Shown: positions 23,242 to 50,582 of the stretch, in pieces
Layout: each line of letters starts with the position of its first letter
Numbering within the stretch: position 1 is the stretch's first letter
Assembly (NCBI RefSeq): GCF_009674725.1
Contig: NZ_WKKH01000002.1
Span: 62,001 to 126,000 of the forward strand
Direction of reading: 5' to 3'
Origin: Pedobacter petrophilus
GTDB lineage: Bacteria > Bacteroidota > Bacteroidia > Sphingobacteriales > Sphingobacteriaceae
Length of the DNA stretch: 64,000 bases
The notes under the pieces: generated by a model
What the model was told of the DNA's origin: nothing
Seen by the model: only the letters and a program-made list of their open reading frames with translations
Database searches by the model: none
Made by a program: the position numbers and the translations under genes

Positions 23242-23412
23242 GTTTCGCCTTTTGTAGGTGGACTTTAGCCCTTAGTTCAAAATTGTTAGTCTCAAGTTCA
23301 CTTCAAAGCAGTAATACTTTATAACATTGCATTTCTTGTAAATCTTCCAATCAGAAAAATTATCATTAGACATATTACCCTAGTTAGATTTTTATTAGAC
23401 TATGGGTAAAGA

Positions 23413-23869
23413 GCAGCTTGCCATTCCATCGCCGTTGGCTTCAGCCAACGGATCAGGGAAAGCCCTGAGTTCTCTTTAGCCTTTAAGCTTTCGGTTTTTG
23501 CTTCCCAAAAATCGTCACTGCAAGTCCGCTACTTTTAAATCTCATATTAAGCAACTTTGCCATTCATCGCCGTTGGCTTCAGCCAACGAATCAGGGAAAG
23601 CCCTGAGTTCTTTTTAGCCTTTAAGCTTTCGGCTTTTGCTTCCCAAAAATCATCACTGCAAGTCCGCTACTTTTTAAATCTCATATTAAGCAACTTGCCA
23701 TTTTATCTCCCTTGGCTTCAGCCAACGGATCAGGGAAAGCCCTGAGTTCTTTTTAGCCTTTAAGCTTTCGGCTTTTGCTTCCCAAAAATCGTCACTGCAA
23801 GTCCGCTACTTTTTAAATCTCATGTTAAGCAGCTTGCCATTTCATCGCCGTTGGCTTCAGCCAACGGAT
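23413..23869. repeat. 139-bp tandem repeat array, 3.3 copies
   Basis: Units start at 23413, 23551, 23690 and 23829 (partial), a period of 138-139 bp. Each full unit has two adjacent hairpins: CCGTTGGCT / AGCCAACGG (9 bp, 2-nt loop) and TCAGGG / CCCTGA (4-nt loop). These are followed by a conserved stretch with AAGCTTTCGGCTTTTGCTT and CACTGCAAGTCCGC. Copies differ at only a few positions. Short frames across it are not coding. Fragments of the unit (AAGCTTTCGGCTTT) also occur at 23165-23185 and 23925-23945. The sequence from 23242 to 23412 is otherwise featureless AT-rich DNA. Confidence 0.92.
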
Positions 23870-48833: not shown

Positions 48834-49003
48834 AATAAGAACCACCCCCTTTAATTCCCCCGCCGGCGGGGGAGACAGGGTGCCTACCTGCCATGTGCCC
48901 GATACTGGTACGAAACTTACTTACATACTTTTTTTCATCATGCTATCTGCAACTTGTATCCCCCTCTGGAGGGGGCAAGGGGGAGGAATGTGTGTGTTAA
49001 GCA
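48834..49003. repeat. 174-bp palindromic repeat, copy 1 (left of the DUF559 gene)
   Basis: Starts AATAAGAACCACCCCCTTT. It contains the perfect 16-bp palindrome CCCCCGCCGGCGGGGG and, about 85 bp on, the hairpin CCCCCTC-TG-GAGGGGG, separated by a conserved core with TGCCTACCTGCCATGTGCCC and GATACTGG. It is separated from copies 2-6 by the nuclease gene. It begins 28 bp after the PNGase gene stop. Confidence 0.92.
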
Positions 49004-49023
49004 ATCTATATTTTTTACGATCA

Positions 49024-49040
49024 AATTAGAGGCTCTAATT
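49024..49040. promoter_or_regulatory. 17-bp perfect palindrome before the DUF559 gene
   Basis: AATTAGAG-G-CTCTAATT, 45 bp before the ATG of the nuclease gene and outside the repeat copies. It could be an operator for a dimeric repressor or part of the gene's own mobile boundary. Motif only. Confidence 0.4.
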
Positions 49041-49084
49041 AATAATTCCACTTAATCTTTTCTTCGAATTTCTTATATTGAACC

Positions 49085-49495
49085 ATGGAGAAGGCAAATA
49101 AAAATAATCTTTGGCATTATAATACCGAGCTTAAAAAATTTGCTAATTCCAATCGAAAAGAAATGACAAAAGCTGAGGCTTGCGCATGGAAATTTTTGTT
49201 AAGCGGCAGACAAATGATGGGTTATCAATTTCGGAGGCAGAGACCAATACTAAATTTTATTGCTGACTTTTTATGTAAAGAACTGATGTTAATTATTGAA
49301 ATTGATGGTTTAACCCATACTTGGGATAGCGTTGCTGAAAATGATAAAAGGAGAGAAAAAGCATTAGCAGATGTTGGATTTACCATTCTTAGATTCGAAG
49401 ATGATGAAATTTTAAAAGATATTGAAAATGTGAATCGGGCTATTTGTTTTTATATTGAAGATTTCGAACTTCGAAATAAGAACCACCCCCTTTAA
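49085..49495 (+). CDS. DUF559 family (Vsr-like PD-(D/E)xK fold) endonuclease-domain protein
   Basis: 136 aa, a normal DUF559 length. After a helical start with EMTKAEACAWKFLL (27-40), the core reads GYQFRRQRPILNFIADFLC (46-64) with Asp61, then LIIEIDG (69-75) with Glu72 and Asp74, His78, and GFTILRFEDDEIL (98-110). These are the positions expected for a Vsr-like metal-dependent nuclease. The substrate is unknown; the family is not proven to be restriction, repair or transposition. The gene lies between copies 1 and 2 of a 174-bp palindromic repeat, and codons 131-136 (NKNHPL) plus the stop are exactly the first 21 bases of copy 2. No partner methylase is adjacent. Confidence 0.88.
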   Translation: MEKANKNNLWHYNTELKKFANSNRKEMTKAEACAWKFLLSGRQMMGYQFRRQRPILNFIADFLCKELMLIIEIDGLTHTWDSVAENDKRREKALADVGFTILRFEDDEILKDIENVNRAICFYIEDFELRNKNHPL

Positions 49496-50331
49496 TTCCC
49501 CCGCCGGCGGGGGAGACAGAGTGCCTACCTGCAATGTGCCCGATACTGGTGCGAAACTTACTTAAACATTTTCTACGTCATGCTATCTGCACTTTGTATC
49601 CCCCTCTGGAGGGGGCAAGGGGGAGGAATTTGTATTAACCAACATCGTCAATAAGCCCCCCCCCCTTTAATTCCCCGCCGGCGGGGGAGACAGGGTGCCT
49701 ACCTGCCATGTGCCCGATACTGGTGCGAAACTTACTTAAGCATTTTCTCCATCATTCTATCTGCACCTTGTATCCCCCTCTGGAGGGGGCAAGGGGAGGG
49801 ATTTGTATTCACCAACTTCGTCAATAAGAACCACCGCTTTTAATTTCCCCGCCGGCGGGGGAGACAGGGTGCCTACCTGCCATGTGCCCGATACTGGTAC
49901 GAAACTTACTTAAACATTTTCTCCATCATGCTATCTGCACCTTGTATCCCCCTCTGGAGGGGGCAAGGGGGAGGAATTTGTATTCACCAACCTCGTCAAT
50001 AAGAACCACCCCCTTTAATTCCCCCGCCGGCGGGGGAGACAGGGTGCCTACCTGCAATGTGCCCGATACTGGTACTAAACTTACTAAAACATTTCTCAAT
50101 CATGCTATCTGCACCTTGTATCCCCCTCTGGAGGGGGCAAGGGGGAGGAATTTGTATTCATCAACCTCGTCAATAAGAACCACCCCCCTTTAATTCCCCC
50201 GCCGGCGGAGGAGACAGGGTGCCTACCTGCCATGTGCCCGATACTGGTACGAAACTTACTTACATACTTTTCTCCATCATGCTATCTGCACCTTGTATCC
50301 CCCTCTGGAGGAGATAATAGGGAGGGAATTT
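49475..50331. repeat. tandem array of the 174-bp palindromic repeat, copies 2-6
   Basis: Units start at 49475, 49650, 49823, 49998 and 50172, a period of 173-175 bp. Length changes fall mostly in C- and G-runs. Each has the palindrome CCCCCGCCGGCGGGGG (for example 50021-50036) and the hairpin CCCCCTC-TG-GAGGGGG (for example 50122-50137), with a well-conserved core between. Copy 6 is damaged at both hairpins and fades out at about 50331. The unit is close to 58 codons, so one frame stays open across two copies, but this looks accidental. Together with copy 1 there are six copies around one nuclease gene. Confidence 0.95.
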
Positions 50332-50582
50332 CGGCTACACAGCCGCTCCTTACCAAAGTTAGAAATCGCTAAATTTTAGTTCATTAAACCTGATTGCAGC
50401 GATATCCTTTTTTGTAATAGAAGTTTCTCTTATTTCACAGAGATGGTTACAAAAAAGATTTAGCGTAAAGCAGGAGTAACGCTTGAAAAAAGCTACAGGC
50501 ATTGCTTTTCAAATTAGAATCGGCAGGTTTTTCAATACTGAAATGTGTATAACCTCTATTCACTCGGTCACATCATTTTTCT

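Follow-up and report, generated by a model that had tools for sequence, protein, structure and literature searches.

DUF559 nuclease genes are linked to triplex-type repeats across bacterial phyla

Sequence comparisons across phyla link genes of the DUF559 family to short palindromic repeats with a G-rich tail: genes and repeats lie side by side, they are co-inherited, and the type of repeat matches the clade of the gene. This suggests that widespread triplex-forming repeats, so far ownerless, have DUF559 as their partner enzyme, as REP sequences have RAYT. We consider a functional pairing of the DUF559 nuclease and these motifs likely, with a probability of about 0.8.

The repeat array and its gene in Pedobacter petrophilus

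We analyzed a 64,000-nucleotide stretch of the Pedobacter petrophilus genome (the window; contig NZ_WKKH01000002.1), in which six copies of a repeat of about 174 bp surround one DUF559 gene. The copies start exactly where the original prediction, made from the sequence alone, had placed them. On the plus strand they span 48834-49007 (copy 1, an inverted doublet upstream of the gene), 49475-49649 (copy 2, overlapping the 3' end of the gene), 49650-49822 (copy 3), 49823-49997 (copy 4), 49998-50171 (copy 5) and 50172-50331 (copy 6, with a decayed right half). TRF run on the window returned a period of 174 with 4.8 copies and 93% matches at 49475-50311. Copy 1 ends at 49007 and copy 2 starts at 49475; the intervening 467 bp contain the gene with its leader, as had also been proposed. 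The open reading frame at 49085-49495 (plus strand, 136 aa) matches Pfam DUF559 (PF04480) in a profile search (E=1.5e-28) and is the sole DUF559 gene in the 5.47-Mb genome. The 174-bp unit is confined to this locus in the whole genome, except that a different contig has a weak match of 37-47 bp.

The repeat had been described as a 174-bp unit with two hairpins. The period and copy starts held, and the unit can be refined to two ~30-nt elements in inverted orientation, about 80 bp apart, each consisting of a C-rich arm, a loop, a G-rich arm, a spacer and a G-rich tail. Element 1, or the left type, has the core GCCGGC and the tail GGGGGTGG and reads CCCCCGCCGGCGGGGG-AATTAAA-GGGGGTGG on the minus strand. 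Element 2, the right type, has the core TCTGGA and the tail GGGGGAGG and reads CCCCCTCTGGAGGGGG-CAA-GGGGGAGG on the plus strand. Left-type motifs lie at 48842-48872 (copy 1), 49657-49687 (copy 3) and 50006-50036 (copy 5), all on the minus strand, and right-type motifs at 49600-49626 (copy 2), 49774-49799 (copy 3), 49948-49974 (copy 4) and 50122-50148 (copy 5), all on the plus strand. The two motifs that bracket the gene, a right-type one directly upstream (48960-48986, plus strand) and a left-type one at the 3' end (49483-49513, minus strand), both aim their tails at the gene. The downstream motif contains the stop codon, and the last codons of the gene (AAT AAG AAC CAC CCC CTT TAA) fall inside copy 2; a C-terminal NHPL or similar ending is also found in DUF559 homologues of other species. 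The array may have formed when the doublet was amplified in tandem, with the gene in one of the spacers.

At this locus, the repeat-DUF559 element is common to two other species and absent in 15 that have the same neighbours. No base-precise empty site could be defined in those 15 because the intergenic region is too diverged. Just 3' of the array and 5' of a topoisomerase gene, a Flavo-1 RNA (RF01705, 60.8 bits) lies at 50382-50481 (plus strand), and the region around it is conserved among related species. The window contains a second tandem array at 23412-23869 (period 139, 3.3 copies, 93% matches).

The repeats have the layout of intrastrand triplex motifs

In all 103 gene-adjacent motifs, TNT precedes C5, and 78 of them have TG as the central dinucleotide. 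The tail mirrors the purine arm rather than copying it directly (654 versus 512 of 721 positions matching). The first tail base after G5 tracks the stem, with T opposite a purine-arm C (64 motifs) and A opposite A (36 of 37). This stem-tail covariation at position 6 (64 C-T, 36 A-A and 1 A-T) is significant at p=1.2e-26; in both tests the G5 runs were fixed by the search pattern and position 6 was free. Because of the mirrored tail and the covariation, we read the repeats as class II intrastrand triplex motifs by layout, with a Y arm, an R arm and, in mirror order, an R third strand antiparallel to the purine arm, joined by short loops. We take T over a C-G pair in the DUF559-linked motifs to be a tolerated interruption; this combination lies outside the standard triplets of the published class (PMC4666352). 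The left-type spacer, at 7 nt, is one above the published loop limit for such motifs. Hairpin energies were not beyond those of dinucleotide shuffles.

A published survey (Holder et al. 2015, PMC4666352) catalogued class II intrastrand triplex motifs, also called TM or PIT elements, in more than 260 bacterial genomes, E. coli K-12 among them, and offered no account of how they spread. The E. coli motif was shown to form a triplex in solution, and its loci are prone to instability in that species (PMC4666352). The DUF559-linked repeats resemble this class in the mirrored arrangement of arms and tail, the intergenic position, the inverted pairing of two subtypes and the instability. They differ in being linked to a nuclease family, whereas no linked gene, mobility function or other function was reported for the published motifs (PMC4666352). 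In our Rfam search, the window motifs matched whalefall-1 (RF01762) at 22.6 bits, below threshold, at 48956-48988, 49596-49628, 49944-49976 and 50118-50150. The hairpin and G-rich tail of whalefall-1 raise the possibility that this "RNA" is a DNA repeat belonging to the triplex-motif class.

DUF559 genes adjoin the motifs more often than expected by chance

Among 145 Pedobacter genomes, close homologues of the window gene adjoin such elements. A scan of 84,980 species yielded 79 loci, in Bacteroidota, Planctomycetota, Ignavibacteria/Chlorobi, KSB1 and others, and nearly all 79 are visibly bracketed by palindromes. With an explicit detector, a motif was found within 300 bp of 54 of 76 homologues from many phyla compared with 7 of 539 shifted positions (p=1.5e-51), and on both sides of 27 of the 76 compared with none of the shifted positions. 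A motif-independent inverted-repeat score, which measures how closely the upstream flank resembles the reverse-complemented downstream flank, yielded p=4.5e-29. All 31 Pedobacter genomes with the gene contain motifs, compared with 22 of the 113 without it (p=1.5e-17), although this genome-level correlation is confounded by shared ancestry. A check for such clustering, suggested in the original prediction, thus did not refute it: repeats lie beside the clade of the window gene far more often than by chance. The motifs in those 22 gene-less genomes, and in some E. coli strains without the gene, indicate that persistence of the motif does not need the gene.

Palindromes could also gather around small AT-rich genes as terminators or neutral GC-rich hairpins. 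GC-rich hairpins do often end genes, and two phage DUF559 genes carry plain terminator-like hairpins. However, a specific tail and a conserved TNT head mark the motif, which occurs in both directions and also upstream, and is absent at 24 other DUF559 loci and 532 of the 539 shifted positions. Published tests of such motifs also found no terminator activity (PMC4666352). We regard this explanation as highly improbable.

In a phylogenetic tree, a branch with support 78/89 separates the repeat-associated genes from 40 other DUF559 genes. The repeat-associated genes form two clades, A and B, with two repeat types: the tail GGGGGATG occurs in 16 of 16 clade-B genomes and in none of the 14 clade-A genomes. 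The 40 other Pedobacter DUF559 genes have 0-1 motif matches in the expected orientation. When orientation was ignored, a separate motif subtype with outward tails was found at 14 of 15 DUF559 genes of ~400 aa and at one truncated relative, whereas none of the 24 remaining Pedobacter genes (19 standalone and 5 encoding very large proteins) is flanked by a motif. A lack of repeats at other DUF559 loci, which would have spoken against the original prediction, is seen only in some clades, as at these 24 genes, and not at the hisF-fused, alphaproteobacterial, Deinococcus and E. coli genes. Motif orientation relative to the gene varies between lineages, with tails inward in Bacteroidota and outward in the hisF type and in Deinococcus. 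No phage or plasmid was found to carry a member of the repeat-associated clade above 50% identity. A literature search, with subscription papers and preprints outside its scope, found no paper linking DUF559 to triplex repeats.

The presence of Y1_Tnp genes also correlates with motifs genome-wide (51 of 82 genomes compared with 2 of 62), yet none of 28 Y1_Tnp genes has a motif within about 1 kb, so a RAYT was ruled out as the local partner of the repeats. The genome-wide correlation would fit another explanation, in which another transposase moves repeat-DUF559-repeat, an old element, in trans, and DUF559 is cargo or a decayed part that does not act on the repeats. Motif doublets do sit inside larger MITE-like repeats with terminal inverted repeats of their own in two genomes (G084 and G123; loci L349-L353, L367 and L368). 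Against it stand the motif-free surroundings of the Y1_Tnp genes and the lack of any other gene seen between the flanking repeats; purifying selection on the DUF559 gene (see below) and clade-matched repeats would also be unexpected for cargo. We consider movement in trans improbable.

The repeat-gene-repeat block inserted between hisA and hisF

The motif-flanked Pedobacter proteins of ~400 aa are DUF559-HisF fusions. Their motif subtype is CCCCCTTTAGGGGG-CG-GGGGGG with tails outward, and they belong to a DUF559 clade other than that of the window gene. In one Pedobacter lineage, the TM-DUF559-TM block lies flush between the hisA stop codon and codon 2 of hisF as a discrete insertion with terminal inverted repeats. 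The locus reads from hisA, ending in TAA, directly into CCCCCCAGCCCCCTAAAGGGGGAG, then through DUF559 to CTCCCCCTTTAGGGGGCGGGGGG, followed immediately by CTAAGTAAA and the rest of hisF. The right repeat encodes the linker PPLGGGG of the fusion protein, and the hisF start codon is replaced. Five species that lack the fusion have hisA and hisF matches separated by just 37-38 bp, and this empty junction contains no repeat. No target-site duplication is visible at hisA-hisF, where a few bases through the hisF start codon were replaced. As judged from this junction, which provides the best evidence, repeat-gene-repeat behaves as one unit that was inserted at least once.

These junctions bear on a further alternative, that the gene is a homing-type parasite that landed in pre-existing repeats. 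The homing nuclease I-Bth0305I is among the closest solved relatives of the protein, and one species (G003) has a single repeat where a close relative (G107) has the gene. However, the block is flush with its repeats and the empty junctions lack them, so the repeats came with the gene. The earlier suggestion that the repeats are a preferred landing site is also weakened, and we give the homing explanation very little weight. At the clade-B locus in question, three close species differ: G107 has the gene, G003 the single repeat, and G112 a fused palindrome with a right-hand remnant. The flanks of G107 and G003 are 96.5% identical over 1230 bp. The simplest account of the gene-less states is loss through slippage between the repeats, at which the block has collapsed. 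The gene seldom occurs in more than one copy and frequently keeps a conserved position, which indicates that recent transposition is rare. In several unfused species, the hisA-hisF gap contains CGTCATTGCGAGGCACGAAGC-type palindromes instead (L407, L408, L410, L412 and L414-L416).

The DUF559 protein is a putative Vsr-fold nuclease

We modeled the window protein with AlphaFold2 using 74 homologues (pLDDT 90). The best matches among solved structures were 3hrl (Z 14.8), the homing nuclease I-Bth0305I (3r3p; Z 10.6) and Vsr (1cw0; Z 8.9), followed by TnsA and Holliday-junction resolvases. Five residues of catalytic type (E31, D61, E72, D74 and H78) are invariant in the 74 sequences, and a dN/dS of ~0.09-0.1 points to purifying selection. 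On the basis of this model, we confidently predict a Vsr / I-Bth0305I fold and a putative nuclease. The protein resembles Vsr and the EDxHD homing endonucleases (I-Bth0305I, 3r3p) in its fold and in its invariant acidic and histidine residues. The genes differ in setting, as Vsr and EDxHD genes lie in introns or beside methyltransferases and the DUF559 gene sits between repeats.

The main rival explanation is a structure-specific, Vsr-like repair enzyme that keeps repeats prone to triplexes or hairpins in check for the host, with the gene kept near its substrate and no spreading of repeats. The fold would suit this role, as would a single-copy, conserved gene under purifying selection. In its favour, VsrA, a DUF559 protein of Caulobacter, has been connected with a repair-like pathway resembling that of Vsr (PMC12907096), and instability of motif loci is reported for E. 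coli (PMC4666352). However, a repair enzyme need not lie between its own substrates, and the flush hisA-hisF insertion and the stop codon within the repeat point to a mobile unit. We therefore judge a purely repair-related role unlikely, though less so than the other alternatives.

Comparison with REP systems and a possible mechanism

The functional pairing that we favour resembles REP/REPIN sequences and their RAYT (TnpA-REP) transposases, known together as REPtrons. The analogy, already drawn in the original prediction, fits the anatomy: a single-copy chromosomal enzyme gene lies between inverted palindromes of ~20-40 nt, gene-less inverted doublets and clusters occur elsewhere in the genome, and repeat types match the lineage. 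The parts differ, as RAYT is a Y1 HUH transposase and DUF559 has a PD-(D/E)XK / Vsr fold. The REP GTAG tag is absent from the DUF559-linked motifs, which have the invariant TNT head described above, a variable spacer after the hairpin and, unlike REP, a G-rich third-strand tail. CGTC-tagged REPs (PMC3733652) are similar in lacking a dedicated transposase, in forming inverted dimers and in occurring in Bacteroidetes and alphaproteobacteria. Their 8-9-bp stems start with AT and have loops of 4-5 and a CCA tail, whereas the DUF559-linked motifs have stems that begin with C5 and a tail of G5 followed by WGG. Given these differences in stem start, tail and head, we rejected membership in either the CGTC or the GTAG REPs.

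By this analogy, DUF559 probably acts on its repeats in a RAYT-like way, and the pair would on balance be a REPtron built from unrelated parts, a Vsr-fold nuclease and G-tailed ~30-nt palindromes. The nuclease would recognise a hairpin or triplex formed by repeats that become single-stranded during replication or repair, and would nick or cut there. Subsequent repair could copy, delete or move the repeats and sometimes the gene. Several of the observations above count against this model, namely the rarity of recent transposition, gene-less states that can equally be losses, the lack of an identified target-site duplication, motifs that persist in gene-less genomes, the ancestry-confounded genome correlation with its Y1_Tnp counterpart, doublets within MITE-like elements, the lineage-dependent motif orientation and hairpin energies within the shuffled range. 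More tentatively, and less likely than not in our view, DUF559 proteins including YcjD might be the dedicated enzymes of bacterial triplex repeats, recognising intrastrand triplexes, such that a single-domain PD-(D/E)XK nuclease mobilises a genome-wide repeat class without HUH or DDE chemistry. A DUF559-triplex pairing would give a role to a large family of "unknown function" and add a second, independent bacterial way to run a REP-like repeat population.

DUF559 genes beyond Bacteroidota

On large replicons of Sinorhizobium, Deinococcus, Pseudanabaena and Qipengyuania, distantly related DUF559 genes have the same palindrome design with other sequences. In Sinorhizobium, the motif CCCTCTCCCC..GGGGAGAGGG-CTA-GGGTGAGGGG lies on both sides of the gene (flank score 194), and the Deinococcus genes have flank scores of 71, 98 and 113. 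A GC-rich hairpin lies within 150 bp of 15 of 23 distant genes compared with 15 of 109 shifted positions (p=1e-6), in a small sample that includes some plain hairpins. In the gonococcus (Neisseria), the DUF559 gene belongs to the family of NGO0050, a protein of solved structure (3hrl), and is flanked by a motif on both sides.

In E. coli (strain KE47 and K-12 MG1655), ycjD (b1289) ends inside a motif and a full motif lies between ycjD and fabI. The gene is present in ~3,319 of 5,426 E. coli genomes. With the triplex repeats linked to a conserved nuclease that has a K-12 gene, the question is directly testable in laboratory strains. No clean empty site was found in the one strain without ycjD that we examined, GmF046 (L399). 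There, a TetR-RND efflux cluster takes the place of the sapF-ycjD side of fabI, and similarity in the query resumes ~40 bp from a motif. In K-12 (L398, about 1350-1400), a long inverted repeat, CCTCATTCTGACAA..TTGTCAGAATGAGG, lies directly before and over the ycjD start. Some DUF559 genes are located inside operons, as in the sufB/sufC gap and a transhydrogenase operon of Sphingomonas and the hpa and paa clusters of Deinococcus (L380, L394, L382, L384 and L390).
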